Shown: piece after piece, positions 3,102 through 31,714 of the stretch
How positions within the stretch are numbered: the stretch's first letter is position 1
Layout of the letters: the number at the start of each line of letters is the position of its first letter
NCBI GenBank assembly: GCA_013152895.1
Contig: JAADFN010000032.1
Coordinates: 1 to 55,892, forward strand
Source: Acidobacteriota bacterium
Lineage (GTDB): Bacteria; Acidobacteriota; Thermoanaerobaculia; Thermoanaerobaculales; Sulfomarinibacteraceae
Reading direction: 5' to 3'
Length of the DNA: 55,892 nucleotides
The notes under the pieces: generated by a model
What the model was told of the DNA's origin: nothing
Databases searched by the model: none
Seen by the model: the letters and a program-made list of their open reading frames with translations, nothing else
Made by a program: the position numbers and the translations under genes

Positions 3102-3372
3102 GGCGCAACTCCGGAAGATGTATTCACGGTAATAGATGTCACGTTGTAATCACGGGGCCGGATCACGGCTCGTTCGGTCACCAGGCCGGGCTGCTCACGG
3201 TCGCCGTGGACAGTGAGATCGCCCGGCGGCGGCGAGCCTCCGGAGGTCCAGGAGGAAAGGGGGTGGCAGAGAGAGCTTATTGAAGGAAGGATCGAAGGCT
3301 GTGACGGTTACTGGTGCACTCCGCACGGATTGTGCCGGTCCCGCCGATGATGGCAACCGAAAGGAGAACACG

Positions 3373-10277: not shown

Positions 10278-10293
10278 TGGCACGGTTCTTGTA
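10278..10293 (+). promoter_or_regulatory. Sigma-54 promoter of pentaheme gene
   Basis: TGGCACGGTTCTTGTA matches the -24/-12 consensus TGGCACG-N4-TTGCW except for T in place of C in the -12 GC. The spacing of ten bases between the GG and GT pairs is correct. The gene start lies about 60 bp downstream. Confidence 0.65.
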
Positions 10294-10355: not shown

Positions 10356-11084
10356 TTGTCACATTCCAGAGCGAGGCATCTGGTTCCGGTCCGGCTGGTA
10401 GGGATTCTTGGGGCGCTCGTTGTCGTGGCATCCGCCGGCGTCGTCATCGGTGCCAGCATCATCGGTTCAAAACACGATCTCTCCACGACGGGTGGCGACC
10501 CATACTCCGACCGGGTCTGCGTTTTCTGCCACACTCCTCACCACGCCAACGACACCCTGCCCATTCAGGCGCCGTTGTGGAACCGGTTCATCGACACCAA
10601 CGAGACCTTTACCGTGTACACAAGCCCGACCATGGACACCACTCCGGGCAATCCAAATACGACGGTTTCCATGCTGTGCCTCGGCTGCCACGACGGGACC
10701 AATGGCACGGCGGTGGTCAACGGCATCACCGGGAGCACCAAGCACGACCTGATCAATGCGCCCGGCCCGGGGGGGATCCCGGACACGACGTCGGAGCCCA
10801 ACTGTCGGCGCTGTCACGGCCAGATGTACGGCGACCCGCCGGCGGTCTGGCAGGGAACGGATCTTTCCAACGACCATCCTATCGCCATGACCTACCCCAC
10901 CTCGGCGCAGGATCCAATGTTCAACACGCCGCCAGATCTCAATACCGGATGGGCTCTGGTTCCCCTCTACAACGGGAAGGTGGAGTGTCCGACCTGCCAC
11001 GATGTCCACAATCCGGCCAATACGCCTTTCCTCCGCATGCCGAACGATGGCAGTCAGCTCTGTGTCACCTGCCACATCAAGTGA
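10356..11084 (+). CDS. Pentaheme c-type cytochrome, filament-cytochrome-like
   Basis: The 242-aa exported protein has five CXXCH motifs (CVFCH, CLGCH, CRRCH, CPTCH, CVTCH). It shares a framework with the tetraheme proteins at 25253 and 29814: GSKHDLS near the mature start, CVFCHTPHH, PLW, CLGCHDGT, NDHPI, CPTCHDVHN and a terminal CVTCHIK. The CRRCH between the second and third framework haems is extra. No ATG fits; the TTG at 10356 follows GGGGAGGTGA at good spacing and gives a signal peptide, so I chose it. The function is probably periplasmic or extracellular electron transfer. The end overlaps the convergent HD-GYP gene by eight bases. Confidence 0.85.
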   Translation: MSHSRARHLVPVRLVGILGALVVVASAGVVIGASIIGSKHDLSTTGGDPYSDRVCVFCHTPHHANDTLPIQAPLWNRFIDTNETFTVYTSPTMDTTPGNPNTTVSMLCLGCHDGTNGTAVVNGITGSTKHDLINAPGPGGIPDTTSEPNCRRCHGQMYGDPPAVWQGTDLSNDHPIAMTYPTSAQDPMFNTPPDLNTGWALVPLYNGKVECPTCHDVHNPANTPFLRMPNDGSQLCVTCHIK

Positions 11085-18100: not shown

Positions 18101-18436
18101 GGCCGAGGCGGAGTATGGCGAGCCGCTGACCCCGTTGTCGATACTGTCGAAGGAGCCGAGGGATGCGTCCCACTGGGTCAAGTCCGCCCGGATGACCTGG
18201 CCACACCCGGTGGTGCAGGTGCCGGGACAATCGGGATCGTGGGCATCGACGGCGAGCGATACGGTTTCACCGGGTTTCACAACGGATGGCGTGGCCGTGA
18301 AGGTATCAATCACCGGTTCGGCCGCTGGGAGGACGGTCGCTCCGGCCACCATCAGCGCTCCGGCAAGCAGAATGCGAAGATGGGGAATAATCCCCAAATC
18401 TCCGCCCTTACCGGTGATGATTCCCCAGCATTCCAC
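15158..18436 (-). CDS. Fusion: Ig/NHL/HYDIN-like protein with IPTL-CTERM-like segment plus pentaheme domain
   Basis: This 1092-aa product joins parts normally found in separate proteins. In order it has a signal peptide (LRILLAGALMVAGATVLPAA), Ig-like domains, an NHL propeller (EPVALAWSPAGEVLVAD), and two choice-of-anchor D/HYDIN repeats (LDFGDVTVGQTSEP, LDFGTVAVGHSSGP). Next comes an IPTL-CTERM-like segment (IPTVGPWGLALMAMLLALAG, then Arg-rich). A second export-signal-like stretch (FIGVFLAGTATVQA) follows directly, then a cytochrome region with CASCH, CQSCH, CSTCH, CRDCH and CLTCH. The reading frame is open throughout. The GTG at 18436 has GGAGGGAGG before it. The real start is uncertain because the paired regulatory sites lie inside the first codons. 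Confidence 0.75.
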   Translation of the reverse strand: MECWGIITGKGGDLGIIPHLRILLAGALMVAGATVLPAAEPVIDTFTATPSVVKPGETVSLAVDAHDPDCPGTCTTGCGQVIRADLTQWDASLGSFDSIDNGVSGSPYSASAVWRAPSTEGTVTVTITLADSGTSLCGGRQTTSAQVVIKVSATAGQEPVITSLTVDHDPVLVDGNAQLQATAVDPQGDPVTFSWSAALGTVSPGSGGAATYHAPAAPGRETVTCTASDPSGNSSSKTLDFTISNAVAETALDSGLAAPFDVGVNEWGDLAVTDAAVDGLDFVNPVTGEFLGTVRVPGVTSVAGDWLGRLVVGTRTGLLLLSATGSILSSLDPGAPLGPVTDVAIDQAGHRIWVLYGATGRVVSFDGSGTVTATFGRRGKNSGEFREPVALAWSPAGEVLVADAVLGQVLVFDPAGNFLKSISSLGNGQGELTRAAGVAVGPGNVLYVSDAFQSWIQTFNADGSFRESLGTYGDESGRFHTPMGLAVLENPPRLAIASVNSSSVQIFRLDGTEAEVPQAEASPALLDFGDVTVGQTSEPRVVKLTNTGPVPVGIYGIHWPAAFETQTTCGDGLAPGESCTATVVFDPVRSGRVAGDLSFQCSGEGSQTVALQARGIAAPAALAQLSPGSLDFGTVAVGHSSGPGTLTLSNAGGGFLDVTSVQIGGEDAAQFVLVADPCTGATIGPGESCTLEVRFSPDATGHMEATLTVESTSSGGPVTATLSGEGGQAASIPTVGPWGLALMAMLLALAGWAALRRRTLVLVFIGVFLAGTATVQAVDPPHWYFGIDCASCHTGHHAAGGSLTTSAGNVNLCQSCHSPGGLASALPINSSDRAVPGQAGTTHRFDVPVDASQWGAQMPTNPEMVKRIMNGNVVCSTCHDQHKARASNRGQLRVSPPERITSLGSTGQVTVGGTYTGAGGSSYLIEITIANAHFRYSKDGGSTWAGEADIGTGVPLDNGLTVTFSGGTFVLGERWRFSASYPFLRAPLDQGDNTSGDKFCRDCHSLWTMDYNEVEVFDWKWKSHPVGVALNANGRGYDRSVPLDGNGAVQGGGGGDGVSSDNLRLDAGGRVQCLTCHGVHYADSNTFTEDGP
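18382..18427. promoter_or_regulatory. Paired activator-type sites, 31 bp apart, between fusion gene and kinase
   Basis: GGGGAATAATCCCCA (18382-18396, part of the perfect palindrome TGGGGATTATTCCCCA on the other strand) and GGTGATGATTCCCCA (18413-18427, 11/15 to consensus) are again exactly 31 bp apart. They lie at the 5' end of the fusion cytochrome gene and about 190 bp upstream of the sensor kinase gene. They could control either gene, including feedback on the regulators. Confidence 0.55.
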
Positions 18437-18466
18437 GATTCGTTCCCTCCCTCCAAATATACCTGA

Positions 18467-18482
18467 GCAAGAACCATTCCGC
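18467..18482 (-). promoter_or_regulatory. Weak sigma-54-like promoter of fusion cytochrome gene
   Basis: On the minus strand GCGGAATGGTTCTTGCTC has GG-N10-GC spacing and a good TTGC -12 element. The -24 box lacks CAC. The predicted transcript start would fall right at the ribosome-binding site of the GTG at 18436. It is a candidate only. Confidence 0.3.
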
Positions 18483-18613
18483 CAACGGGGCTTCGCGCGG
18501 TGGCGGCGCCAAGAAGGCGCGAGATCGTCTCGCCCCTGAGAACACGCCTCGTTCATGTACCGCAAAGACCACGTGAGCTGCGATACAATCAACGCGCCGG
18601 GGAGGGTCCACGA

Positions 18614-20104
18614 GTGTCATCCGAGCCGTCCGCAACGAGCCACCGCTTCCGATTGCCATGGTCCCCGCGGACCTTGCTGATCCTGGTGCCCCTGCACCTC
18701 GTGGCCTTCCTGCTCCTGTACGTGGCCGTGCTGCACCTCGTCGTTCACGAGGTCGCCATGACGTACGAGGCGGAGAGCGGAGCGTTGCTCAACGCGGCCG
18801 TCAGCAAAATCCACTCCTCCATGGTGTGCTCGCAAGGAGGCGGCCTGCACGAACGGCTGGGGGACTTGATGGTATCTCACGAGATCCTGGGGCTTTCCGT
18901 CTTCAACGCATCGGGGCACCCCGGTTCTCCCGTCAGGCCGCCCAACCCCAGGGTATCGGCCTTTCTCGCCACTGACGCCGACGAGAATGTCCGCATCGAC
19001 AAGAACGGGGGAAAGACCACGCTGATCGCCATGGCGCGAATCCGGGCGACGAGCGAGTGCAAGCCGTGCCACATCCCGGGAGCGACCATCGGCGCGCTGA
19101 TGGTCACCCGGGATATCAGCGACGCCTTGAGTGCGACACGCCGCCGCACGGGGATCGGTCTCGCCTTGCTGATCGGGGGCTGGGCCGGACTCGTGGTCGT
19201 GGTCAACTTCGCCACGAAACGTTTCGCCACGGCGTCCGTTGACGCCCTCAAAGCCAGGGTGGCGGCAGAGCCCCCCAGTGCGGCGCCCACGACCGGCGTG
19301 CGGCTGGGCATGGACTCCCTGTCCCACGAGCTCTACCGGAGCCTGGAGAGCACGCTTCGCGAACACCGCAAGGAGCGCGCCGCCATGGAGAGCCGTTTCG
19401 AAAACGCCGAGCGGCTGGCCAGCATGGGGCAGCTCGCTGCGGGACTCGCTCACGAGATCAAGAACCCGGTGGCGGGCGTCCAGGGTGCCCTCGAGCTTCT
19501 CGTCGAGGAGTGCCACAACGACGATCGGATCGACCTCTACCAGCGCATGCTCGACGAGCTGAGGCGGGTGAACGAGACACTTCATTCACTGCTCCACTTC
19601 GCCCGTCCCCGGAAACCCCAGCGCCTCTCGACCGACATTCCGCTCCTCCTCAAAGACATCGCCGACCTTGCCCGGCCCGGGCTTTCCCGCCGGGGCATTA
19701 CCCTGAGCATCCGGGTGGATGAACGCGTGCGGACCTTCATCCTCGATCCGGGCCAGATTCGCCAGGTCGTCGTCAACTTGATCACCAACGCTGCGGACGC
19801 CATCGGTAGCTCGGGGAGCATCAAGCTCCTTGCAACGCCCTTCCCGGAAGGGAATGGAATGATCCTGGCCGTGGTGGACGACGGTCACGGCATGGACGAG
19901 GAGACTCTCAAGGCGGTGTTCGAGCCATTCTTCACCACCAAGCTGCACGGAACGGGGCTCGGACTGGCGGTCGCCCAGAAAATCGTCGAGAAGCACGGTG
20001 GGAGCATCCAGATTACCTCGGCGCCGGGAGAGGGGACGACGGTCTTCCTGCTGTTCCCCGATCCGGGCGAGGAGATTTCGTACAGCGGTGGAACGGAGGC
20101 CTGA
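18614..20104 (+). CDS. Sensor histidine kinase with periplasmic c-haem motif
   Basis: The 496-aa inner-membrane kinase has a first membrane helix (LLILVPLHLVAFLLLYVAVLHLV) and a periplasmic domain of about 130 residues. That domain carries a haem-attachment motif, CKPCH, at residues 149-153. A second helix (GIGLALLIGGWAGLVVVVNF), a linker and a HisKA domain follow; the phosphorylated His is at about 280 in LAHEIKNP. The ATPase domain shows NLITNAADAI, DDGHGMDE and GTGLGLAVAQKIVEKHGG. The GTG at 18614 follows GGGGAGGG. The CXXCH suggests it senses redox state, oxygen or NO, or haem maturation, by covalent haem. It is three bases from its likely partner regulator. Confidence 0.9.
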   Translation: MSSEPSATSHRFRLPWSPRTLLILVPLHLVAFLLLYVAVLHLVVHEVAMTYEAESGALLNAAVSKIHSSMVCSQGGGLHERLGDLMVSHEILGLSVFNASGHPGSPVRPPNPRVSAFLATDADENVRIDKNGGKTTLIAMARIRATSECKPCHIPGATIGALMVTRDISDALSATRRRTGIGLALLIGGWAGLVVVVNFATKRFATASVDALKARVAAEPPSAAPTTGVRLGMDSLSHELYRSLESTLREHRKERAAMESRFENAERLASMGQLAAGLAHEIKNPVAGVQGALELLVEECHNDDRIDLYQRMLDELRRVNETLHSLLHFARPRKPQRLSTDIPLLLKDIADLARPGLSRRGITLSIRVDERVRTFILDPGQIRQVVVNLITNAADAIGSSGSIKLLATPFPEGNGMILAVVDDGHGMDEETLKAVFEPFFTTKLHGTGLGLAVAQKIVEKHGGSIQITSAPGEGTTVFLLFPDPGEEISYSGGTEA

Positions 20105-20107
20105 GCC

Positions 20108-21466
20108 ATGGCATTGATTCTGCTCGTGGAGGACGAAGAGCTGCTCAGGTGGGCGCTGAAAAAGAGGCTTGCCAAGGCGGGACATGCCATCGACGAGGCG
20201 GGCTCCCTGGCCGAGGCGGCCGATCACCTCAAGCGTCGCCAGCCGGACCTGATGTTGCTCGATCTGGCACTCCCGGATGGCCATGGGCTCGATTTCTTCG
20301 AGGATCACCAGGCCGACCTGGAAAGTACCGTCACGATCATCATGACGGCCGTTGGCGAAGTGGAAGATGCCGTTCGCGCCATGAAGCTTGGCGCCTTCGA
20401 CTTCCTCTCGAAACCCGTAGATACCACCGAGCTCCTCAAGCTCATCGACCGCTCTTTGGCCCGCCGGCAGGAGTGTCTCACCGCCCAGGTCGCCCGCCGT
20501 GAGCAGGAGACCCGGACGAGCACCGATATCGTGGCACATTCGGCCGTGTTCAAGAAAGTACTGAACATCGCCTGCCAGGTCGCCCAGTCCCACGTCGACA
20601 CCATCCTGGTCCAGGGGGAGAGTGGCACCGGGAAGAACGTGGTCGCACGCTATATCCACGCGGTTTCGCAACGCCGGGACAAGCCGCTCCTCGAGATCAA
20701 CTGTGCTGCGCTTCCCGATCACCTGGTAGAGAGCGAGCTCTTCGGCCATGAACGGGGGGCATTTACCGATGCCAAGACGAGCAAGAAGGGAACCCTCGAG
20801 CTGGCCGCGACCGGCTGCCTCGTCCTCGACGAGATCAGTGAGCTGAAGCTCGAAGTCCAGGCCAAGCTCTTGCAGTTCCTGGAATCCAGGGTTTTCCGGC
20901 GTGTTGGCGGACTGCGGGAAATCCACGTGGAAACGCGCGTGATCGCCTTGACGAACCAGGACCTCCGGGAAATGGTGGCGGAGGGCAGGTTCCGGGCGGA
21001 TCTCTACTACCGGCTCGCCGTTTTCCCCATCACCGTTCCGCCCTTGCGGGAGCGCCACGAGGACGTTCTCCCGCTCGCATGGGCCTTTCTCCGGAAGTTA
21101 CAACCGGCGCTCGGACGCCGTTTCAACGGACTGACACGGGAGGCCGAAAACCTGTTGCTGGGGTACTCGTGGCCCGGCAACGTCCGCGAGCTGCGCAACG
21201 TGGTGGAGCGGGCAATGATTCTCGAAAAGGGCCCAGAGATCACCCCTTCGTCCCTGATCCTCGATCCGGAAACCGGGGCGCCCGCGCCTTCGGGCAGAAC
21301 CGAACCCCTGGCGGGGATCGTCCCCCTCGAAACCGCCGAACGAGAGCTCGTCCGGAGGGCCATGCGGGCGACGGGAGGCAACCAGACACGCGCGGCCGAG
21401 CTCCTGGGAATCACGCGGGATCAGCTCCGCTACCGGCTCAAGCGCTTTCCCGAGGCCAGCGAGTAA
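20108..21466 (+). CDS. NtrC-family sigma-54-dependent response regulator
   Basis: The 452-aa cytoplasmic activator has all three domains. The receiver has VEDEE and the phospho-acceptor Asp52 in MLLDLALPDG. The AAA+ domain has Walker A GESGTGKN at about 170, the sigma-54-contact loop ELFGHERGAFTDA, and FRADLYYRLAVFPI. The C-terminus has a Fis-type helix-turn-helix (GGNQTRAAELLGITRDQLRYRL). It follows the kinase by three bases. Proteins of this type bind upstream enhancer sites and open sigma-54 promoters; such promoters occur at 10278, 21473 and 25170 ahead of cytochrome genes. I infer it is their activator. Confidence 0.95.
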   Translation: MALILLVEDEELLRWALKKRLAKAGHAIDEAGSLAEAADHLKRRQPDLMLLDLALPDGHGLDFFEDHQADLESTVTIIMTAVGEVEDAVRAMKLGAFDFLSKPVDTTELLKLIDRSLARRQECLTAQVARREQETRTSTDIVAHSAVFKKVLNIACQVAQSHVDTILVQGESGTGKNVVARYIHAVSQRRDKPLLEINCAALPDHLVESELFGHERGAFTDAKTSKKGTLELAATGCLVLDEISELKLEVQAKLLQFLESRVFRRVGGLREIHVETRVIALTNQDLREMVAEGRFRADLYYRLAVFPITVPPLRERHEDVLPLAWAFLRKLQPALGRRFNGLTREAENLLLGYSWPGNVRELRNVVERAMILEKGPEITPSSLILDPETGAPAPSGRTEPLAGIVPLETAERELVRRAMRATGGNQTRAAELLGITRDQLRYRLKRFPEASE

Positions 21467-21472
21467 CCCACG

Positions 21473-21488
21473 TGGCACGATCCTTGCT
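21473..21488 (+). promoter_or_regulatory. Near-perfect sigma-54 promoter
   Basis: TGGCACGATCCTTGCT matches the -24/-12 consensus at all key positions with ten bases between GG and GC. It begins six bases after the stop of the activator gene and drives the receiver-like gene and probably the 21-haem operon. A GC-rich palindrome at 21312-21326 (CGGGGATCGTCCCCC), inside the activator gene, matches the paired-site consensus at 11/15 but has no partner at 31 bp. Confidence 0.8.
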
Positions 21489-21511: not shown

Positions 21512-21898
21512 ATGCGGATCGCGATTCTCGACTGCTCGCCGTTGACGGCGTGGACCATTGTACGGCTGTTGCCTCCGAATGTGGATTACGACGTGCTGCC
21601 CTCCTTCGAAGAGGCACATCGCGTGCTCTGCGAGGCCCCGCCGGACGCGGTCCTCATCGGTCTGACCGCCGGCCGGTTGCCGTGGGAGGACCTCCTCGAG
21701 CTCTGCAGGTCCAACCATCCGGAGATTCCCTACCTTCTCTACTATTCCCTCAACGCTCTCCCGCCGGGAGAGCCCGTGCCGCAGGCGGTGGCCAACGCCG
21801 CCGTTTCGCCCGTGGAGATCGCGGAGCTGAGGCTGGCCGTTCGGGGCCTTCTCGATCGCGCCAGGTCCCAGGATCGTGCCACACGATCGCCAGGGTAG
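21512..21898 (+). CDS. Degenerate receiver-like protein
   Basis: This 128-aa protein has the hydrophobic pattern of a response-regulator receiver: MRIAILDCSP, DAVLIGLTAGRLPWEDLLELCR, IPYLLYYSLN. The phospho-acceptor Asp is replaced by Gly (VLIGLT) and the conserved Lys appears to be missing (AAVSP). It therefore probably cannot be phosphorylated and may act by binding the kinase or the NtrC-type regulator. There is no output domain. The gene is the first after the sigma-54 promoter at 21473, and an AGGTGG site precedes the ATG. It may be a pseudo-receiver that feeds back on the switch. Confidence 0.6.
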   Translation: MRIAILDCSPLTAWTIVRLLPPNVDYDVLPSFEEAHRVLCEAPPDAVLIGLTAGRLPWEDLLELCRSNHPEIPYLLYYSLNALPPGEPVPQAVANAAVSPVEIAELRLAVRGLLDRARSQDRATRSPG

Positions 21899-21929: not shown

Positions 21930-23681
21930 GTGTTGAAGCAGATTGCCCGAATCGGTTCCATAATGCTGGTTGCCGTTGGCGTCTCCGTCCCCGTTGCGAT
22001 TGCGGGCCACCATCCGCAGCTCGTCTCGGTTCAAGCCTCGAAGTGCACAAACTGCCACGGCGACCTCCTGCGGGGCATGGTCTCCGTTCACCCTCCCGCC
22101 AAGGAGGACTGCACGAACTGTCACGACGTGCAGATTACTGCCACGAGCACGACGATCGGGCTCAACGAGAAGGAACCTGCCCTCTGCCTGGAGTGCCACG
22201 ACGGCCTCCAAAAGGCCGTCGACGGAAAGCTGGCGAGCCCCCATCCGCCGGTCGGCGACTCGTGCCTCAACTGCCATTCGCCCCACGCAAGCGCCAACAA
22301 ACACCTCCTCAACGAGGCCATTCCCGCCCTGTGCCTCGCCTGCCACGATCTCGATGAGCTTCAACCGAAGCACGGAGGGCAGCTCACAGAAGACGTCAAT
22401 TGTCTCGCCTGCCACTCCCCCCACGGCAGCGATGCGCCCAACATGTTGCGCGCCAAGCACCAGCATCCACCCTTCGGTGCGGGAGAGTGCGACGCCTGCC
22501 ACCGCAAACCGTTCGCGGGCCGCGTCAGGCTGCGCGCGTTCGGCGCCAAGGTGTGCACCGCATGCCACGGAGAAATCATCAATCCCAAGGCCGTCAGTAT
22601 CCATCCCGCCCTCGACCGCCGGCGGAACCGGAAGGTCTGCGTCGCCTGCCACGACCCGCACATGAGCGACAATCCTTCGCTCCTGATCGTCACCGGCCCC
22701 GACCTTTGCAAGAAGTGCCATCCAGGTATCGTCAAGGCTGCTCGCGCCGACACGGGTCATCCGGCCGCTTCCGAGGATTGCACCAACTGCCACAAGCCTC
22801 ACGACGCGTCCCAGCCCAACCTCCTGACCGAAGCCACGCCGGCTCTCTGCCTGGAGTGCCACGATGCCGATGACGCCCAGCTTCGCAAGGCGCACCTCGG
22901 CGCGGATATGACCACCCTGCCGTGTGTCAGCTGCCACACGCCCCACGGTGACGGCAACAAGTACCTCCTGGCGAAGACCGTCCATCCGCCCGTGCTCGAT
23001 GGCTGCGACACCTGTCACGAGGGGGCGTACAACAAGCTGATGGACGACGGGGGCTCCGCCCTCTGCCTGGAGTGCCACGACGATATCGGCGAAGAGGCCA
23101 AGAAGGCCAAGTTCCCCCACCCGGCGATGGAAATGGCCGAGTGCACCGATTGCCACAACCCCCACGCTAGCGCCCAGGACCACCTGGTGAAGGAACCGTC
23201 CGGCAAGGAGTGCCTGGCGTGCCACGACGACATCGGGCCGGGCAAGAACGAGGTGGCCCACGGCGTGATCACGCTGATCGGGTGCCGGGTCTGTCACGAG
23301 CCCCACGGGGGTTCCAGGCCGCACCTCCTGCGCATGGATCCGGACGCGCTGTGTCTCAGCTGCCATGACGCCAAGCACTCGCCACCCCCGAATTCCACGA
23401 AGCCGGTCAAGGTGCTCGGTCAGTTCGAGATACCCGCCGAGATCGCCCGGGTCATGGCATCTCTCAGACTCAGCCCCGACGGAACCCGGGACCACCCCGT
23501 GACCAACCACCGTGTGCTGGGAACGCCGAGCAAGAAGGAGCTCAAGCGCAACGATGCACACTTCAAGGGAGAGCTCCACTGTCTCACCTGCCACAATCCC
23601 CACAAGGGGGCGTCGCGCCTGCTGCTCCGCTGGGGAGCCGCCAACTCGTACCAGGCCTGTGCCCACTGTCATCCCAAGTGA
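21930..23681 (+). CDS. Exported 21-heme c-type cytochrome
   Basis: The 583-aa protein has a signal peptide ending about PVAIAGHH and 21 CXXCH motifs, one per ~26 residues. They follow a repeating paired pattern: CLNCHSPHAS...LCLACHD, CVSCHTPHGDGN...CLECHDD. This is the doubled-CXXCH domain arrangement seen in large outer-membrane decahaem-type proteins. The density implies an extended haem wire across or outside the outer membrane. The GTG at 21930 follows AGAGGAGG; a TTG is the next codon. It is followed 18 bp later by a propeller lipoprotein gene, and the whole set probably reads from the sigma-54 promoter at 21473. Confidence 0.93.
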   Translation: MLKQIARIGSIMLVAVGVSVPVAIAGHHPQLVSVQASKCTNCHGDLLRGMVSVHPPAKEDCTNCHDVQITATSTTIGLNEKEPALCLECHDGLQKAVDGKLASPHPPVGDSCLNCHSPHASANKHLLNEAIPALCLACHDLDELQPKHGGQLTEDVNCLACHSPHGSDAPNMLRAKHQHPPFGAGECDACHRKPFAGRVRLRAFGAKVCTACHGEIINPKAVSIHPALDRRRNRKVCVACHDPHMSDNPSLLIVTGPDLCKKCHPGIVKAARADTGHPAASEDCTNCHKPHDASQPNLLTEATPALCLECHDADDAQLRKAHLGADMTTLPCVSCHTPHGDGNKYLLAKTVHPPVLDGCDTCHEGAYNKLMDDGGSALCLECHDDIGEEAKKAKFPHPAMEMAECTDCHNPHASAQDHLVKEPSGKECLACHDDIGPGKNEVAHGVITLIGCRVCHEPHGGSRPHLLRMDPDALCLSCHDAKHSPPPNSTKPVKVLGQFEIPAEIARVMASLRLSPDGTRDHPVTNHRVLGTPSKKELKRNDAHFKGELHCLTCHNPHKGASRLLLRWGAANSYQACAHCHPK

Positions 23682-23699
23682 TTCGGAGGCATCTGATCC

Positions 23700-24759
23700 A
23701 TGAACCGACTCATCTTCCCTATTCTCGCCCTGGCGCTGGCCGCCGGGACCATCGGCTGTACCACCATTCCCAAGGCGGAGCCCACGCAAACCAAGAGCCG
23801 TGAGCAGAAATACGCCGCGTACGTGTGGCCCCCGCCCCCCGACCAGCCCCGTATCCGGCTCGTGGACATTCTGCACAGCCGCCTCGACGTGGAACCCAGC
23901 TCGCACTTCGAGAGAGTGCTTCTCGGTTCGAGCCCCCACAGCCCGTGGGACTTCCTCAAGAAGCCCTTCGGGGTCGCCATCGACAGCCACGACCGTATCC
24001 TGGTGACCGACCCCGGGACTGGCGCCCTGGTGCGTTTCGACCGGGCCGGCCGCAAGATGGACGTCATCGGCGTCAAGGGACCGGTCCGCCTCAAGGTCCC
24101 GCTCGGCGTCTCCATCGGACCCGACGGAACCATCTACGTGGCGGATGCAGGCCTGACCAAGGTCGTGGCCTTTTCCCCGAAGGGCAAGCTGGTGAAGGTT
24201 TACGGCCACGAGGGTGAGCTGCTCAACCCCACGGATGCGGTCGTATCCCCGGATGGGACCAAGCTCTACGTGACCGACTCCAAGGCCCACAAGGTCGTGG
24301 TATTCAACGTGGCCAACGGCAAGATCGTCATGAGCTTCGGTTCCCGGGGCACCGAGCCGGGCCAGTTCAACTTTCCGACGGCCCTGGCCTTCTCGCCCGA
24401 CGGCGATCTCTTCGTCGTGGACCAGATGAACTCCCGGGTCCAGGTGTTTACCGGTGATGGCGATGTCCTGGAGACTTTCGGCGCCCTGGGCGTCGGTTTC
24501 GGAAACTTCGTCCGGCCCAAGGCCGTGGCCGTCAACCACGACGGCCTGGTCTTCGTCACCGACGCCGCGTTTGGCAACGTACAGATTTTCGATTCCGACC
24601 TGCGCCTGTTGACCTTCGTCGGTGAAAACGGCCACGGGCCGGGTCAGTTCCAGCTCCCCGCAGGCGTGGCGGTCCACGGGGAACCAGTTCGCCGTCGTGG
24701 ATCAGCTCAACAGGCGGGTTCAGCTCTTCCGCTTCATCAAGCCGAAGGGTGGGAAATAA
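23700..24759 (+). pseudogene. NHL-propeller lipoprotein with a one-base frameshift near the end
   Basis: The protein begins with a lipoprotein signal (lipobox TIGC) and contains six-bladed NHL repeats: KPFGVAIDSHDRILVTDPGTG, LGVSIGPDGTIYVADAG, FNFPTALAFSPDGDLFVVD. At about 24678-24681 (CACGGGGAACC) the frame breaks. Removing one G restores HGNQFAVVDQLNRRVQLFRF and a stop at 24759, giving 352 aa. The end of the paralogue at 28831 (VVVADSLNRRLQVF) matches the restored version. The annotated ORF to 25256 is therefore wrong past 24681. A homopolymer sequencing error is as likely as a true mutation. Such propellers accompany porin-cytochrome conduits and may organise them at the membrane. Confidence 0.8.
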
Positions 24760-24796
24760 TCCCCACCAATCCGCGGGATGGTGGGCGTTTTCCCCA
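24751..24796 (+). promoter_or_regulatory. Paired activator-type sites, 31 bp apart, upstream of tetraheme gene
   Basis: GGGAAATAATCCCCA (24751-24765) overlaps the restored stop codon of the propeller gene. TGGGCGTTTTCCCCA (24782-24796) lies exactly 31 bp on and is weaker (10/15). They are about 375 bp before the sigma-54 promoter at 25170, against 75 bp in the pentaheme locus. A repeat element lies in between. Confidence 0.55.
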
Positions 24797-24898
24797 GGCC
24801 GGTTTTCCGGGTTCACACCGCAAGATGAGGAACGTGAGCCATGGACGGCGGCCCCGGGCGGGTGCAACGGACGCGAAACACGCACCAGGAACGCCTCC

Positions 24899-25070
24899 AG
24901 CCCGCGTCTCTCACGAACGTTCGTTGCGAGGCCATGGAGGCACCGATCAGCATGACGTTCCGACCAAGGTGGCGAAAAGCCCGCTCGTGGCACGTAATCA
25001 GCGCCACCGCCGCGAGAAACGCGGCTATGGCGGGCACATTCGCGGTCGCAGCAGGAAGCCGGCGAGCTTT
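24899..25070 (-). repeat. MITE-like repeat, copy B
   Basis: Imperfect terminal inverted repeats are visible: AGCCCGCGTCTCTCACG at the left and GCGAGAAACGCGGCTA near 25012-25027. The interior aligns with copy C (38097-38242) over about 140 bp, sharing GCGAG, ACCAAGG, CGTGGCACG, GCCGCGAGAAA and GGTCGCAGC-GGAAGCC. No transposase is present, so it would need to be moved in trans. Confidence 0.6.
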
Positions 25071-25169
25071 GTGGGCCGGGGCCGTGCAAACAGCTCCTGC
25101 GCCGCGCTACCCGGGCGGTTGCGGCTCAGGCCCCCCTTCGGCATCGCCGGCCCCCCGATTCTGCGTGGC

Positions 25170-25186
25170 TGGCACGGAGGTTGCAA
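25170..25186 (+). promoter_or_regulatory. Perfect sigma-54 promoter of tetraheme gene
   Basis: TGGCACGGAGGTTGCAA matches the consensus at every key base with ten bases between GG and GC. Transcription would start near 25196. The coding start at 25253 follows AGAGAGGGAGGA. Confidence 0.85.
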
Positions 25187-25252
25187 ACTGCAAAGGTACG
25201 CGCTTCTCGTCGGTGCGGGAGGCGGGATATTAACCAGAGAGGGAGGATCATT

Positions 25253-25921
25253 ATGAAGAAAGTCCTAATTATCTGCCTGGCGGTGCTCGTCACCGCTGTC
25301 ATGGCCAACGCCCAAACGGTGGTTGGCACACCCCACGACCTGAGCGCAACGGGGCCGGGCGCCACAACCAACGTCAGCCGGGTCTGCGTCTTCTGCCACA
25401 CGCCTCACCAGGCCAGCGCGGCGGCCGGCCAGTACCCCCTCTGGAACCACACGCTGTCTTCAACCGCCAGCTACGGCGTGTACTCCAGTCCCACGCTCAA
25501 TGCCAGCCCGACCGACATCGGCGGGGCGACGGCAGGATCCGCCGCCGTGTCCAACCTGTGCATGTCCTGTCACGACGGCACGGTCTCCGTGGCCAGCATG
25601 TACAATCCCCCCAACGAGGTGAGCTCTGTCACGCTTACCGCCGGTGGTAACGTGACGTCGGCCGGCCTCATCACAGGCACGCCGGATCTGGGGACAGATC
25701 TCAGCGACGACCACCCGATCAACTTCACCTATGACACGGCTCTGGCCACCGCTGATGGCGGCCTCAACGATCCGGCCACGGATACCGCTGTGGCGGACCT
25801 TCTCATCGGTGGCGAGGTCCAGTGCTCCTCGTGCCACAATCCCCATGACAACACCTACGAGCCCTTCCTGGTGAAGGACAACACGGGCAGCGCACTCTGT
25901 ACGACCTGTCATATCAAGTAG
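25253..25921 (+). CDS. Tetraheme c-type cytochrome, possible nanowire subunit
   Basis: The 222-aa exported protein has four CXXCH motifs (CVFCH, CMSCH, CSSCH, CTTCH) and five other histidines. That is enough for bis-His ligation of all four haems. Length, haem number and order (PHDLS, CVFCHTPH, PLWNHTL, CMSCHDGTV, DDHPINF, CSSCHNPHD, terminal CTTCHIK) resemble the OmcE-type family that polymerises into extracellular filaments. It has a strong sigma-54 promoter, its own terminator and nearby chaperone, porin and propeller genes. Together these suggest a highly made structural cytochrome. Filament formation is inferred, not shown by sequence. Confidence 0.85.
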   Translation: MKKVLIICLAVLVTAVMANAQTVVGTPHDLSATGPGATTNVSRVCVFCHTPHQASAAAGQYPLWNHTLSSTASYGVYSSPTLNASPTDIGGATAGSAAVSNLCMSCHDGTVSVASMYNPPNEVSSVTLTAGGNVTSAGLITGTPDLGTDLSDDHPINFTYDTALATADGGLNDPATDTAVADLLIGGEVQCSSCHNPHDNTYEPFLVKDNTGSALCTTCHIK

Positions 25922-25946
25922 GCTTGTGACCTGAACGAACGATGGA

Positions 25947-25981
25947 CCGCGGGGGCCGGAAAACCGGTCCCCGCGGGTTTG
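25947..25981 (+). terminator. Hairpin after tetraheme gene
   Basis: A 13-bp stem (CCGCGGGGGCCGG / CCGGTCCCCGCGG, one G-T wobble) closes an AAAA loop and is followed by GTTTG. It lies between the tetraheme gene and the chaperone gene. It could be a partial terminator that makes the cytochrome message more abundant than the downstream genes. Confidence 0.65.
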
Positions 25982-26059
25982 TAGCGGGCAGACACCATTC
26001 CATGAGAAAATGAGTACGGATTGGATGTCTGCATCGCTCAGCAGCACGAAGGGAACAAC

Positions 26060-27049
26060 ATGGTGCGCCACCTTACCGTCCGGCTGGTTGGAGTGATCAT
26101 GGCGGCGGGGCTCATGGCCTCGCCGGCTGCGGGTTCTCAGCCGAAGATCGCCGCCCGGGTGGGCGACAGGATCATCACCCGCGGCGAGCTCGACCGGGAG
26201 GTCCAGCGGGCTATCAACACCGGTTACTTCCACAGGCGGCTCCCGGAAAACGTGCTCCGGGCGCTGCGCCTCAAGCAGCTCGAGAAGCTCATTCACCGCG
26301 ACCTGGACATCCTGGGCGGCTACGACCGGGGCCTCAAGCTGCCGCTGGCCGATGCCAAGGGACGGCGCGCCGCCATGGAGATTCAGCTCGGCAAGAAGAC
26401 GTACGAACGCTCGTTGAAGATCAACGGGTGGACGCGGGCGGACCACGTGCGCATTCTCGCGGAAACACTCATGGGGCAGGAGGCGTACCGCAGATTCGTC
26501 TTGGAGAAAGCCAAGGTTCCGGAAGGTGCCGTGCACCGGGCCTATGAGGCCAACCCCGGACGGTGGAAGATGCCTCCGTCTCTCCACATCTTCCACATCC
26601 TGCTCAAGGTTCCCCCGTCGGCCGGTGGTGCGGTGTGGGCGAAGCGTGAGGCCGAGGCCCGAAAAATCAAGGCCCAGGTCCTGGCGGGAACGCCTTTTAC
26701 CGACCTTGCGGCGCGCCGCTCGGAGGGAATGTACCGGATCAAGGGCGGCGACCTGGGGTGGGTTCACAAGGGCCGTCTCGAGCCCGAGCTCGAGAAAGCG
26801 GCATGGAAGGCGAAGGTGGGTTCCGTGGTGGGCCCCATACGGACCTTGGAGGGGGTACACCTGTTGCTGGTCACGGCGCGCCGGCCAGCGCGGCAGCTCA
26901 CATATAAAGAGGCAGCGCCGATTCTCCGCAAGGAGCTCGAGAAAAAAGCCCTGGCGAATGCCGAGAAGCGCTGGTACAGCGAGGTGCGGAAGCGGCATCC
27001 CGTGGTCATCCTCGATCCGGCTTTGCGTCAGAGCGACGGGGGACGGTAG
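26060..27049 (+). CDS. Periplasmic parvulin-type peptidyl-prolyl isomerase (SurA/PrsA-like)
   Basis: The 329-aa protein has a signal peptide (LVGVIMAAGLMASPAAG). A SurA-like N-terminal part follows (IAARVGDRIITRGELDREVQ). A rotamase domain lies at about residues 175-285, with HIFHILLKVPP, FTDLAARRSEG, GGDLGWVHKGRLEPELEKAAW and GPIRTLEGVHLLLV. Enzymes of this type fold outer-membrane barrels or secreted proteins. Its place directly before the barrel gene and after the tetraheme gene suggests it helps assemble the barrel or the cytochrome. The start at 26060 is preceded by GAAGGGAA. Confidence 0.88.
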   Translation: MVRHLTVRLVGVIMAAGLMASPAAGSQPKIAARVGDRIITRGELDREVQRAINTGYFHRRLPENVLRALRLKQLEKLIHRDLDILGGYDRGLKLPLADAKGRRAAMEIQLGKKTYERSLKINGWTRADHVRILAETLMGQEAYRRFVLEKAKVPEGAVHRAYEANPGRWKMPPSLHIFHILLKVPPSAGGAVWAKREAEARKIKAQVLAGTPFTDLAARRSEGMYRIKGGDLGWVHKGRLEPELEKAAWKAKVGSVVGPIRTLEGVHLLLVTARRPARQLTYKEAAPILRKELEKKALANAEKRWYSEVRKRHPVVILDPALRQSDGGR

Positions 27050-27055
27050 CTCCGC

Positions 27056-28834
27056 GTGCGCAGGTGGGGTGCGACGCTGCTCCTGCTGGGGGCAACAGCA
27101 CTCGTCCCGCGAGCAGCTTACGCCCAGCTCTTTGGTCAGTGGTCCTGGAACGCCCTGCTGAGCTTGGAGCAACGTTCCTTCCTGACCGAGACGAAAGGGA
27201 GCGCCTTGACCGATTACAAGGAACGCGGCTTCCGCCTGGATTTGGGCATGAATGGTTTTATCATCCATCCGGCCATCGCCCGCTTCCGCCTCGGCCTCGA
27301 CACCTTGGTTTCCAACTATACGGGAACGGCGGCCCCGGACAACAAACGCTGGGGACTGCACGCGCAGCTCACCCTTCTGCCGTACAGCCGGTACCCCACC
27401 TATTTCCACCTGACCCGCACCCGGTACAACTACACGCTGAATTCCGAGGATCCACTGGCAACGACCGGCCTTGCCGATACGACGAGGAACTGGGGGGCGA
27501 GGATCCGCTTTCGCGGCGGGCTCCTCCGCGGCCTGGCGGCCAGCACTGACCGAACGGACACGAGCTTTGTCGACCCCGCGGTCCGCAACGAGGTCTTTCT
27601 CCGCCAGTACCTGGACTGGGCCGGTGCCTCCGGGCGGATCAACCACCACTACCGCCTCGAACGGCAGTACCGCCGCTACGGCCGGACTCGCTATACCACC
27701 GACGACTACACCCTGACGGTGGACGAGCACGGCCTCCTCTCGGACCGCTGGCGCTGGGACCTCAGCGGTGTCGGCTTTCACCGCAGCTTCGATTACGAGA
27801 ACACCAACAACACGGTGGACACGGCCCGGCTTCGGAATCGCATCGTCTACACGACACATCGTGATGACCTCATAGATCTCTCGTATACCGGTGGTTTTAG
27901 CCATGCCAAGGCCGGGCGCACCGCGACGACCAATGCAGTGACCGCTCGCTACGTCTGGAACGCCGCGAGCGGCCTGCAGGTGACTCCCACGGTGAGCTAC
28001 TCCGTGCAACATGCGGGTGACACAACTGTCAACGCACCGGCGACCGGAGTCAGCCTGTCGTGGAGCCACATCGCGGACCGGTACGACCTCAGTCTCAACG
28101 GGGGCTTAAGCGGCGCGTGGATCGACACGTCCTGGAATGACGGCTCGCAGAAAACAACCGTGATGGCCTGGACCGCGGGTTCCACGGTCGGAACCGGATC
28201 AGAAGATCACGTGCGGGCCGAGCTGGACCTGTCTCTGGCCCACAACGAGCTGCGCACCGTTGGCGACGCCCTGGTGGAGCTCCCCGATCTCGGCACGGAG
28301 TACGAGCGCATCGGCCTCCAGAACAGCTTCCGGAGCCGCCTGACCCTGCGCCGCCGCATTCGCCGATGGCATCTCAGCACCTACCTGGAGCACCGGCATC
28401 GTGAGCAGGAGAGCGCGCGGATCAATCCGGTCCGTGTGAGCTCCAACATCCTGGACGTCACTCTCAGCGGACCCGGCATCGGGTTCACCCTCGACACCGG
28501 CAAGACCCAGGGGCGTTCTGGATTTCAGCAGGATGTGAGCTTCTTCGCTGCGAATATTCACTGGATGCCGCTCCGGTACCTGACGCTGAGATCCACGTAC
28601 CTGACCAACGTGAGCAACGTCTCCCAAGGGCCCGACATCCATCTCCAGCGGATCGAGGGGACCGCCCAGCTCCACTTCGGGCGCTACACCCTCGATGCCA
28701 AGTTGTGGGACCAGACGGAGACGATCGAAGGGAGCCTGCAGCGAACGCGGGGAGTGCTCCTGACCTTCTCCGCCCGCTTCGCCGGATGGCTCCCCTTCGT
28801 CAGCGCTCCACAGCGGCGGGGGATCATCCGATGA
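27056..28834 (+). CDS. Outer-membrane beta-barrel, probable porin of cytochrome conduit
   Basis: The 592-aa protein starts at a GTG six bases after the previous stop and has a signal peptide ending near AAYAQ. The rest is a series of alternating amphipathic strands rich in Tyr, Arg, Asp and Thr (YFHLTRTRYNYTLN, HYRLERQYRRYGRTRY, FSRLTLR-type turns). This is typical of a large barrel and there are no cysteines for haem. I cannot assign it to a named porin family. Its neighbours (chaperone, propeller lipoprotein, multihaem proteins) fit the barrel of a porin-cytochrome complex that lets electrons cross the outer membrane. Confidence 0.75.
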   Translation: MRRWGATLLLLGATALVPRAAYAQLFGQWSWNALLSLEQRSFLTETKGSALTDYKERGFRLDLGMNGFIIHPAIARFRLGLDTLVSNYTGTAAPDNKRWGLHAQLTLLPYSRYPTYFHLTRTRYNYTLNSEDPLATTGLADTTRNWGARIRFRGGLLRGLAASTDRTDTSFVDPAVRNEVFLRQYLDWAGASGRINHHYRLERQYRRYGRTRYTTDDYTLTVDEHGLLSDRWRWDLSGVGFHRSFDYENTNNTVDTARLRNRIVYTTHRDDLIDLSYTGGFSHAKAGRTATTNAVTARYVWNAASGLQVTPTVSYSVQHAGDTTVNAPATGVSLSWSHIADRYDLSLNGGLSGAWIDTSWNDGSQKTTVMAWTAGSTVGTGSEDHVRAELDLSLAHNELRTVGDALVELPDLGTEYERIGLQNSFRSRLTLRRRIRRWHLSTYLEHRHREQESARINPVRVSSNILDVTLSGPGIGFTLDTGKTQGRSGFQQDVSFFAANIHWMPLRYLTLRSTYLTNVSNVSQGPDIHLQRIEGTAQLHFGRYTLDAKLWDQTETIEGSLQRTRGVLLTFSARFAGWLPFVSAPQRRGIIR

Positions 28835-29817
28835 GGAGATTGGCGTGGCTCCTGGTGGCTGCCGGGGCGCTGGCGGGCGCCTGCACCGTGGTCCATCACG
28901 CACCATCGGCCCACGAGGGGGCCGGGGTCCGGTTGTGGCCGGCGGAGCACCCGCGTATCGAGCTCGTCCGGGTTCTCGGTGTCCGGGGTGACCTGCGCGG
29001 TGGCGGGCTCCTGCGTTGGCTCCGGGGCGGACGCAAGGATCCACTCTTCGCCAGGCCTTACGGCGTGGCCTGGGATGGCGAGGCGCTCCTCGTGGCTGAT
29101 CCCGGGGCTGCCCGAGTCCTGAGGATCGCGCCGGGCGGCGGCATCCGCCAGAGCAAGGAGGGCCTCTTCGTGGCGCCAGTGGCCCTGGCCGCCTGCGAGG
29201 GAGGCATCGTCGTCACCGATCCGGCGGCCGGAAGCGTCGCCCTCCTCGACCGTGACCTCCGGCTTTCCCGCTGGCTGGCTCGCGATCTCCAGCGCCCCAC
29301 GGGCGTGGCGTGCGTGGGTCCCCATGTCTACGTGCTGGAGACCGGCGCCCACCGGCTGGTGGAGATCCGGGATCAAGCCGTGGTTCCCGTGCTCGGAGGG
29401 CGGGGAGATGGACCCGGACAGTTCAACTTCCCCACGGCCCTGACGGCCGACGGGTCCACCCTCTGGGTGGGTGATACGCTTAATTTCCGGGTCGTGAGGG
29501 TGGATCCGGCGAGCCGCCAGGTCCTGGAGACCTTCGGAACCCTGGGTGATTCCCCGGGAGAGATGCCCCGGCTCAAGGGGCTGGCGGTCGATCGGGAGGG
29601 ACGCCTGTGGATCAGTGACGGTCTTCTTGACCAGATCGCCCTGTACACCCGGGGAGGAACGTACCTCATGTCGATCGGACGACACGGAAGCGCTCCGGGT
29701 GAGCTGAGCTTCCCCGCCGGGCTCGCCACCGGGCCACACGGACGGGTCGTGGTGGCCGATTCCCTCAACCGGAGGCTCCAGGTTTTCGCGCCCGTCCCAA
29801 CGGAGGCAATGCCATGA
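28831..29817 (+). CDS. NHL-propeller lipoprotein
   Basis: The 328-aa protein is a paralogue of the 23700 product. It has a lipoprotein-type signal (LLVAAGALAGAC) and six NHL blades, for example RPYGVAWDGEALLVADPGAARV, FNFPTALTADGSTLWVGDTLNF and LKGLAVDREGRLWISDG. The ATG overlaps the stop of the barrel gene, and its own stop overlaps the next gene, so the run is translationally coupled. It probably sits on the inner face of the outer membrane or in the periplasm and supports the conduit. No haem motif is present. Confidence 0.85.
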   Translation: MRRLAWLLVAAGALAGACTVVHHAPSAHEGAGVRLWPAEHPRIELVRVLGVRGDLRGGGLLRWLRGGRKDPLFARPYGVAWDGEALLVADPGAARVLRIAPGGGIRQSKEGLFVAPVALAACEGGIVVTDPAAGSVALLDRDLRLSRWLARDLQRPTGVACVGPHVYVLETGAHRLVEIRDQAVVPVLGGRGDGPGQFNFPTALTADGSTLWVGDTLNFRVVRVDPASRQVLETFGTLGDSPGEMPRLKGLAVDREGRLWISDGLLDQIALYTRGGTYLMSIGRHGSAPGELSFPAGLATGPHGRVVVADSLNRRLQVFAPVPTEAMP

Positions 29818-30512
29818 ACGGCCCACAACGATCGTCCCGATTTCTGGCGGCCGGCCTGGTTGTGTGCCTGTGGACCGTGCTGCCCAGCCCTGCGGTGGCC
29901 CAGCAGCGGGTCGCAGACACGCTCCACAACCTCTCGGTCAGTGGCCCCGGCGCGATTCATTCGGTCAGCGAGACGCAAGTGTGCAAGTTCTGCCACATCC
30001 CGCACAACGCCGTCGTCCCCCATCCCCTCTGGGGGCACACCCTTTCCTCGGCCGACTACCGCGTACCCGACGTGATTTCGCCCTCGGGAGGAAAGCTGCC
30101 AGCGCCCCAACCCGACGGCTCCTCCCGGCTCTGCCTGTCCTGCCACGACGGTACGGTGGCGCTCGGCGACCTGGGCGGGAAACGGCCCATCCCCATGCTG
30201 GGGAGCCAGCGCCTGACCCCCGGACGGCGCGGTTTCATCGGCACGGATCTCAGCGGAAGCCATCCCATCTCTTTCGTCGTTCGTGACGCTACCGGTGCCC
30301 GTGGCGCGGCAACTGAACGGGACATGGGGCTCCGTCCCCTTTCCTCCATCACGGCAGATCCGGACGTCCGGCTGGACGCCATGGGAAAGATGCAGTGCAC
30401 CACCTGCCACGATCCCCATAGCGATCAGTATTACAAAAAGGGCCAGGTCCCCCACTTCTGGGTCAAGCCGACGGTCCAGGAGGTCTGTATCACATGCCAC
30501 GCCCTCCGGTAA
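29814..30512 (+). CDS. Tetraheme c-type cytochrome, paralogue of 25253 product
   Basis: The 232-aa exported protein has four CXXCH motifs (CKFCH, CLSCH, CTTCH, CITCH). It repeats the framework of the 25253 protein: TLHNLSVSGPGA, CKFCHIPHNA, PLWGHTLSS, CLSCHDGTVALG, GSHPISF, CTTCHDPHSD. Seven further histidines can serve as axial ligands. The ATG overlaps the propeller stop (ATGA). It may be a second filament subunit, a cap, or the periplasmic partner of the barrel. Confidence 0.85.
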   Translation: MNGPQRSSRFLAAGLVVCLWTVLPSPAVAQQRVADTLHNLSVSGPGAIHSVSETQVCKFCHIPHNAVVPHPLWGHTLSSADYRVPDVISPSGGKLPAPQPDGSSRLCLSCHDGTVALGDLGGKRPIPMLGSQRLTPGRRGFIGTDLSGSHPISFVVRDATGARGAATERDMGLRPLSSITADPDVRLDAMGKMQCTTCHDPHSDQYYKKGQVPHFWVKPTVQEVCITCHALR

Positions 30513-31714
30513 TCGCACCGTTTCTCGCGTTTCTCCTGGGTGTCGCGGCTCTCGCTGCCGGCCAGACGCCCCACATGGACCCCAGCCGCGTGCCCGGGTC
30601 GTGCATGGCCTGCCACATGGGTCACGGGGTCAGCGGCTCACCCATGCTCTCCGAGCCGGTTGACGCCGTCTGTCTGCGCTGCCACGGAACCCTCAGCGAT
30701 CGCAACCGCATGATCATGGAAGGATTGCTGGCCGGTGACGCCACGCCCCTGTCTTTGAGCTCAGTCCTCGCCCAGCCGTACACCCACCCGCTCGATGCCT
30801 CCGCCACCTCGGCCGAAACTGCTTCCACGGCCACCTGTACCTCGTGTCACGCACCACACCGTGGGTTCGAGGGCGCCGGGAACCAGCCGGCCGGCATACC
30901 GAAACGCTCCCCGAAAAACCCGAACCGCTTCGAGTATCAGCTCTGTGAGGGGTGCCATGGCAGTGCAGGCGCCACCACCACGAGCGTCTCCGATATCAGC
31001 CGGCTCTTTTACCCTGGTAACGCTTCCTACCACCCGGTAGAGGCGCCAGCCAACGACAGCTCCCCCTCCGTCATCGCATCACTGAGGGGCAAGCAGATCA
31101 GCTGTACGGATTGCCACGGCAACAGCAACCCGGCCGGGCCCCGGGGTCCTCACGGGTCCGCCGTACAGTACATCCTACGCCTCAATTATGTGACAACGGA
31201 TGGACCGGAAAGCCCGAACGCCTACGCCCTGTGCTACGCCTGCCACGATCGCAAGAAGGTGCTCGACAGTACGGCATTCCCGGAGCACGGCGAGCACATC
31301 GTGAAGATCGGGGCCTCCTGCGCCACCTGCCACAATCCGCACGGCTCCGTGATCAACCGAGCCCTGATCCGTTTTGGCGAGGAAACCATCATCTCGGGAG
31401 TGGCACCGTCACCCTCGACGGGCCGGCTCGCCTTCGTGTCGACGGGCCCAGGGTCCGGGGCGTGCTACCTGCTCTGCCACGGGAAGGACCACGGTCCGGC
31501 GACGTACGGATCGGTGAGCCTTCAGCGCCTCCAAAGAAGGATGGCGCCCGGGCCGTCCCGGGTTCCAGCAGAGACGACGCTCCCTTCACGAAGGGTCCTG
31601 AGGGGTTCGGGCGTTTCTCCACGCAAGCACAACCCCCAGGATGATACCGAGCCGCACGGCCGACCCCCAGTCCACGCTCCCGCTCCCGTGCGCCACCAGG
31701 CTCCACAGGAATGA
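30494..31714 (+). CDS. Octaheme-type c-type cytochrome
   Basis: The protein is up to 406 aa, with a signal peptide (FLAFLLGVAALAAG). It has seven CXXCH motifs (CMACH, CLRCH, CTSCH, CEGCH, CTDCH, CYACH, CATCH) and an eighth CX3CH motif, CYLLCH. The gene overlaps the end of the tetraheme gene by 19 bases. After KDHGPATYG the last ~60 residues are Arg/Pro-rich without haem motifs and overlap an opposite-strand gene (31586-31786). The natural C-terminus may therefore be shorter, or a frameshift may be present. It closes the cytochrome run and is probably the terminal component of the conduit. Confidence 0.8.
   Translation: MPRPPVIAPFLAFLLGVAALAAGQTPHMDPSRVPGSCMACHMGHGVSGSPMLSEPVDAVCLRCHGTLSDRNRMIMEGLLAGDATPLSLSSVLAQPYTHPLDASATSAETASTATCTSCHAPHRGFEGAGNQPAGIPKRSPKNPNRFEYQLCEGCHGSAGATTTSVSDISRLFYPGNASYHPVEAPANDSSPSVIASLRGKQISCTDCHGNSNPAGPRGPHGSAVQYILRLNYVTTDGPESPNAYALCYACHDRKKVLDSTAFPEHGEHIVKIGASCATCHNPHGSVINRALIRFGEETIISGVAPSPSTGRLAFVSTGPGSGACYLLCHGKDHGPATYGSVSLQRLQRRMAPGPSRVPAETTLPSRRVLRGSGVSPRKHNPQDDTEPHGRPPVHAPAPVRHQAPQE

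Follow-up and report, generated by a model that had tools for sequence, protein, structure and literature searches.

A candidate OmcE-type cytochrome filament and conduit locus in an acidobacterium, with a predicted split undecahaem cytochrome

Does a compact run of cytochrome genes in an acidobacterium encode an extracellular cytochrome filament, a conduit through the outer membrane, or both? The question is raised by contig JAADFN010000032.1 of Acidobacteriota bacterium (assembly GCA_013152895.1), analysed here over its full 55,892 nucleotides (the window; contig C32 of a 3.0-Mb draft genome that is 97% complete). Eight genes on the plus strand (21930-31714), named below by their first position, encode a 21-haem cytochrome, an NHL lipoprotein, a tetrahaem cytochrome, a parvulin, a barrel, a second NHL lipoprotein, a second tetrahaem cytochrome and an octahaem cytochrome. 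The original prediction saw here a nanowire or porin-cytochrome system with OmcE-like tetrahaem proteins in a lineage outside the Geobacter group. All eight genes are present, their tight or overlapping order is as described, and the host is an uncultured member of Acidobacteriota, probably of Thermoanaerobaculia. The locus is likely to be a two-component-regulated module that makes an OmcE-type extracellular cytochrome filament and wires it to a conduit on which it would be docked; of the two tetrahaem proteins, the first is the proposed filament subunit, and the second is probably the OmcE-like half of a conduit cytochrome.

The product of the first tetrahaem gene (25253..25921, UetA-like) matches the filament subunit OmcE of Geobacter sulfurreducens (PDB entry 7TFS) along its whole length (E=1e-34, residues 6-222 on 9-232) and also the PDB entry 9YUQ, which has 16 identical chains (E=3e-32). 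In the homology search it falls with the OmcE filament subunit and not with a soluble periplasmic family. The protein has a signal peptide and four CXXCH motifs; the histidines of these motifs and the distal H28, H52, H154 and H198 are all kept, giving eight haem ligands that are almost invariant in an alignment of 174 OmcE-like domains. The OmcE match is weaker for the second tetrahaem protein (29814, E=4e-19) and for an OmcE-like pentahaem protein (10356..11084, plus strand; E=7.5e-27), which was correctly proposed as a paralogue and which adjoins the cluster in the relatives G002 and G021. The motif string said to be shared by these three small cytochromes holds approximately; the pentahaem protein has CLGCHDGTN and CPTCHDVH. 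OmcE-like pentahaem proteins, together with a fused multihaem protein, are also found in Candidatus Frackibacter (L071; Halanaerobiales, a line usually grouped with Firmicutes).

The regulatory signals set the 25253 gene apart from its neighbors. A perfect match to the sigma-54 (-24/-12) promoter, TGGCACGGAGGTTGCA (25170..25185, plus strand), lies 67 bp ahead of it, and a terminator-like hairpin with a perfect 13-bp stem follows it (25947..25976, plus strand; the enclosing stretch has z=-4.3, and the T-run is weak). The only other perfect sigma-54 match in the window, TGGCACGATCCTTGCT (21473..21488, plus strand), stands after the regulator gene and before the 21-haem operon, and both sites are identical in G005, a relative from the same family. 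A sigma-54-like site with 1 mismatch, conserved in relatives, precedes the pentahaem gene (10278..10293, plus strand). Across all genomes compared, one of which is counted twice, sites with at most one mismatch precede 22 of 107 other standalone tetrahaem or pentahaem genes, for which shuffling gives an expectation of about 0.4, and none of the 56 fused conduit genes (described below). Consensus scans for sigma-70 promoters (3 against 1.4 expected, all on the minus strand) and for intrinsic terminators (6 against 8.1 expected, the 25947 hairpin not among them) are uninformative. The genome contains rpoN, and the candidate controlling proteins are encoded upstream on the plus strand: a sensor histidine kinase (18500..20104; PF00512/PF02518) with a CKPCH haem-c motif between two membrane helices predicted from sequence, and a response regulator (20108..21466; PF00158, E=6e-63, PF00072, PF02954) with a sigma-54 activation domain and a Fis helix-turn-helix. 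In relatives, as in other phyla, kinase orthologues with one CXXCH adjoin the cluster. The 25253 gene, having a sigma-54 promoter and a hairpin to itself, appears to be a separate unit, which fits a subunit needed in excess.

This separate unit, the retention of all eight histidine ligands and the placement of 25253 on the filament side of the domain tree (see below) argue against a simple porin-cytochrome conduit that makes no polymer, in which 25253 would stay monomeric, a surface or shuttle cytochrome docking on the octahaem protein, and electrons would leave through it one molecule at a time. Such an arrangement seems unlikely, although the conduit parts would be complete without a wire, and PMC10734462 describes the Tenderia protein UetA just as an extracellular tetrahaem cytochrome. 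Several other considerations weigh against a filament module. Homology to OmcE alone is no proof of polymerisation, and only one of the four OmcS-type paralogues in G. sulfurreducens is known as a wire-former (PMC12977616). A haem-free AlphaFold2 model of the tetrahaem protein, built from 9 sequences, reaches a predicted local distance difference test score (pLDDT) of 36 and is used for no claim here; the regulator carries GAFTDA, a variant of the GAFTGA motif; and the gene for the peptidyl-prolyl isomerase (PPIase) is absent from the G041 cluster and is found in just 7 of the 80 named loci, which were retrieved with the tetrahaem protein alone as the query.

The second tetrahaem gene (29814..30512, UetJ-like) overlaps the octahaem gene (30494..31714), and the label of the latter is fair, except that its product has seven CXXCH and one CX3CH (CYLLCH) rather than eight CXXCH. 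Most other phyla have, behind the second NHL gene, one gene for a single chain of about 560 residues that carries 11 CXXCH (4+7 haem); the first ~210 residues of this chain match 29814, and residues ~220-560 match 30494. The tree of OmcE-like domains has two sides (FastTree; IQ-TREE on a subset, with a Shimodaira-Hasegawa-like approximate likelihood ratio support of 95): OmcE, 9YUQ, 25253, the pentahaem protein and other standalone cytochromes fall on one, and all N-terminal domains of the fused undecahaem proteins, together with 29814 and its relatives, fall on the other. The residue after the first histidine is Asp on the filament side and Asn on the conduit side, and the C-terminal Lys differs between the sides as well; 29814 has HNLS and lacks the C-terminal Lys. 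The matches to fused proteins, the tree and the residue differences together identify 29814 and 30494, by homology, as the two halves of a split undecahaem conduit cytochrome. The conduit protein thus carries an OmcE-like domain, and this domain, judging from the tree, forms a branch of its own opposite true OmcE and 25253.

The same evidence bears on the idea that 29814 is a second, independent filament subunit, so that the cell would make two wires or a mixed one. The OmcE layout and histidine set of 29814 and its match to OmcE are what this idea would lead one to expect. However, 29814 groups with the N-terminal domains of the fused proteins, its gene overlaps the octahaem gene as the parts of a split protein might, its residues are those of the conduit side, and none of the 56 fused genes has a sigma-54 site; the idea is therefore very improbable, and a locus with two filament subunits is rejected on the basis of the tree and the fused proteins. 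Accordingly, the OmcE-like designation of both tetrahaem proteins in the original prediction stands for 25253 as a filament-type protein, whereas 29814 is probably part of the conduit.

Of 64 homologues, 63 retain the C-terminal CX3CH motif, the single exception being on a truncated contig, so that the number of haems bound by the ‘undecahaem’ protein is probably twelve. The trees are compatible with a split of the gene in this lineage and with a fusion elsewhere: in the first tree, the split genes are nested within the fused ones, and a tree that holds the fused ones together is not rejected (p=0.82 in the approximately unbiased test). A further split tetrahaem/octahaem pair is found in Nitrospirae (L032, 14070-15970), outside the Acidobacteriota clade, so that the split or the fusion may have occurred more than once.

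The product of 27056..28834 (UetC/OscG-like) has no family match in Pfam or NCBIfam and no sequence match in the PDB. An AlphaFold2 model built from eight sequences predicts a barrel of 28 beta strands (mean pLDDT 85.7; predicted template modelling score 0.71), bearing out at the fold level the outer-membrane barrel that had been proposed. All matches listed for this model in the PDB are outer-membrane barrels, with MtrB giving the top TM-score among the 50 listed (0.48). Profile comparison with hhalign gives probabilities of 93% for the barrels of Nitrospirae and 80% for those of the Bacteroidota type (two-profile values are uncalibrated), and next to nothing for the barrel candidate of Geobacterales; these values are only suggestive of shared barrel ancestry with the Nitrospirae and Bacteroidota-type loci. 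The preceding gene (26060..27049, OscH/UetB-like) encodes a parvulin-type PPIase with a SurA-like N-terminus (PF00639, E=3e-18; PF13624), and NHL beta-propeller lipoproteins (PF01436) are encoded at 23700..24759 and 28831..29817. The first of these is present as predicted, but the open reading frame of 518 amino acids listed for it is a frameshift artefact. The frame is shifted by one base at a GGGG run (24678-24681) and is intact in G005, which points to an assembly error or a recent mutation; a genuine C-terminal extension is rejected, given that the intact G005 frame stops at the same C-terminus.

The 21-haem cytochrome (21930..23681; PF09699, E=4e-87) has the 21 CXXCH motifs attributed to it, and its gene is kept in all nearest loci that cover its position. 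Relatives from the same family, order and class repeat the order kinase, regulator, 21-haem, NHL, tetrahaem, PPIase, barrel, NHL, tetrahaem, octahaem, and a comparison with other genomes shows the chaperone, barrel and NHL genes kept beside the tetrahaem gene, the point that the original prediction had proposed as a check. Among the 80 named loci, 76 have NHL genes, 65 a standalone tetrahaem or pentahaem gene and 57 an undecahaem gene; in 46 of the loci, the undecahaem gene is immediately preceded by an NHL gene. The module tetrahaem–NHL–cytochrome–barrel–NHL–undecahaem is found in at least ten phylum-level groups, with records in Pseudomonadota, Bacteroidota, Verrucomicrobiota, Planctomycetota, Calditrichota, Desulfobacterota, Nitrospirota and KSB1, among others, so the locus is not a new kind of system. 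Given this recurrence of the gene order in relatives and in many phyla, and a genome-wide count of 348 for the CXXCH-type pattern against 158 for a reversed control pattern, the clustering of haem genes is not due to chance.

The island is accessory and relocates. In G005 (contig C121, L131), the flanks of the region that corresponds to 2800-32150 of the window, glycogen phosphorylase and Ccm genes, lie about 6 kb apart with no island genes between them, and the G005 copy of the island is on a different contig. A search of a genome from the same genus (99% complete) gives no match to the tetrahaem protein.

Among described systems, the layout is closest to the Uet (‘undecahaem’) cluster, uetABCDEFGHIJ, reported in PMC10734462 and PMC12575090 from Candidatus Tenderia electrophaga and some Gallionella. 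The comparison relies on the gene list in PMC10734462 and on two gammaproteobacterial loci with a Uet-like order (L042, L056). Going by that list, the tetrahaem UetA, the PPIase UetB, the barrel UetC, the NHL proteins UetH/I and the undecahaem protein are common to both, and the order A-B-C-(H/I)-J is matched. UetJ is a single chain, whereas here the two overlapping genes 29814 and 30494 cover the fused homologues; Uet as listed has three trihaem proteins (UetD/E/G), whereas this locus has no trihaem open reading frame and encodes the 21-haem protein instead. The locus also lacks the tetratricopeptide repeat (TPR) protein of the list, adds an upstream NHL gene and the sigma-54 two-component system, and resides in a different phylum, Acidobacteriota. 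No statement of an OmcE-like domain in UetJ was found in a literature search that lacked the primary Uet and osc papers, and priority is uncertain.

The osc (omcS companion) cluster of Geobacter, as outlined in PMC13194489 and PMC12977616, contains a PPIase chaperone, channel proteins, a nanowire-morphology protein and large cytochromes, and is always accompanied by OscC/GSU2501, a paralogue of the wire subunit. The present locus likewise encodes a PPIase, a predicted channel and propeller proteins, a likeness in kind of protein and proposed function. The nanowire-morphology protein of osc is a propeller. The osc wire is the hexahaem OmcS, unrelated in sequence, and no hexahaem gene is present in the locus. 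In outline, this architecture has been described before, as Uet in Tenderiales and, by analogy of function, as osc in Geobacter. The likeness to MtrCAB consists in a large outer-membrane barrel with cytochromes, with a predicted 28 strands here and 26 in MtrB; the cluster has neither a decahaem MtrA nor MtrC, and the octahaem protein matches MtrA over about 60 residues only (E=1e-5).

The resemblance to Uet also suggests that the pathway could work inward, with minerals or partner cells as the electron source, a direction put forward for Uet in cathode-oxidising Tenderiales; the architecture is the same (PMC10734462, PMC12575090). Conduits, moreover, are often reversible. Homologous loci are, however, found in Geothrix and Geobacterales, which are Fe(III) and electrode reducers, and we find it improbable that inward flow is the working direction. 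In Geothrix fermentans, the OmcE-type gene is accompanied by genes for an NHL protein, a barrel-sized protein of 587 amino acids, an octahaem protein and a PPIase. In Geobacterales-like genomes, recognised solely through 59% identity to OmcE, it is found with two large multihaem cytochromes, an NHL gene and a barrel-sized gene of 750-800 residues; unlike the window locus, these omcE loci have no undecahaem, octahaem or PPIase gene within about 10 kb.

From the gene content, homologies, split-gene relation, promoter sites, conservation and modelled barrel fold, we infer polymerisation, docking, localisation and a direction of electron flow that is more likely outward. The haem-motif kinase and the sigma-54 regulator would activate the 21-haem operon as well as the filament gene. 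Electrons from the periplasm would enter the 21-haem protein as a collector and cross the outer membrane through a porin-cytochrome conduit formed by the 28-stranded barrel and the 29814/30494 pair. The parvulin may act in the periplasm to hold the barrel, the cytochromes or both in a foldable state, and the two NHL lipoproteins may be scaffolds at the outer-membrane surface; PMC13194489 reports or proposes folding and scaffolding roles for the Geobacter osc proteins OscH and OscD. The 25253 protein would be exported and polymerised into a wire along which electrons leave, and the conduit cytochrome probably links this wire to the conduit through its OmcE-like half, which would be the docking subunit or the first one. 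More tentatively, and with more doubt than confidence, we suggest that the 29814-type domain is a dedicated socket: seated in the barrel, its haem chain would continue that of the octahaem part, and the first OmcE-type subunit would be added onto it. This arrangement would be general across many phyla, with the Geobacter osc block and its obligatory OmcS-like paralogue as a parallel solution.

Several genes around the locus deserve mention. A small receiver-like protein without a Pfam match (21512..21898, plus strand) is kept in place among relatives. On the minus strand (12333..18592), the island encodes linked surface cytochromes, a 13-haem Ig-domain cytochrome and an NHL/Ig/pentahaem protein. 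The latter is a single open reading frame (15158-18592) in which an IPTL-CTERM signal (residues 782-809) is internal and is followed by the five-haem domain; a sorting signal in this position is odd. The frame is also single in G005 (L022) and corresponds to two genes in G041. Two Peptidase_C39-like proteins adjoin the island (3280-4557, plus strand; 5227-6417, minus strand). A second cytochrome region (G000:C47, 5935-17493 and 34600-39300; L129, L130) contains genes for Rieske, cytochrome b and 9-haem proteins, a NapC/NirT-type pentahaem protein, a 23-haem protein, and a DmsE/MtrA-type decahaem protein adjoining a protein of 658 amino acids without an NCBIfam match and a 7-haem protein; quinol entry and a separate Mtr-like conduit are possible functions of these cytochromes.

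The anchoring of cytochrome nanowires, and the way in which electrons reach them across the outer membrane, are open questions in the field, and the conduit cytochrome of many phyla carries a domain homologous to the wire subunit. In this lineage, where the OmcE-like domain is a separate small protein, the docking idea becomes directly testable. The locus joins three literatures, those on OmcE filaments, the Uet pathway and the osc assembly genes, and the combination of sigma-54 with a haem-motif sensor offers a regulatory handle with which wire genes could be predicted among those of the OmcE type. If the proposal is true, the OmcE-like half of the conduit cytochrome would be a general anchor and electrical link of OmcE-type nanowires to the cell.

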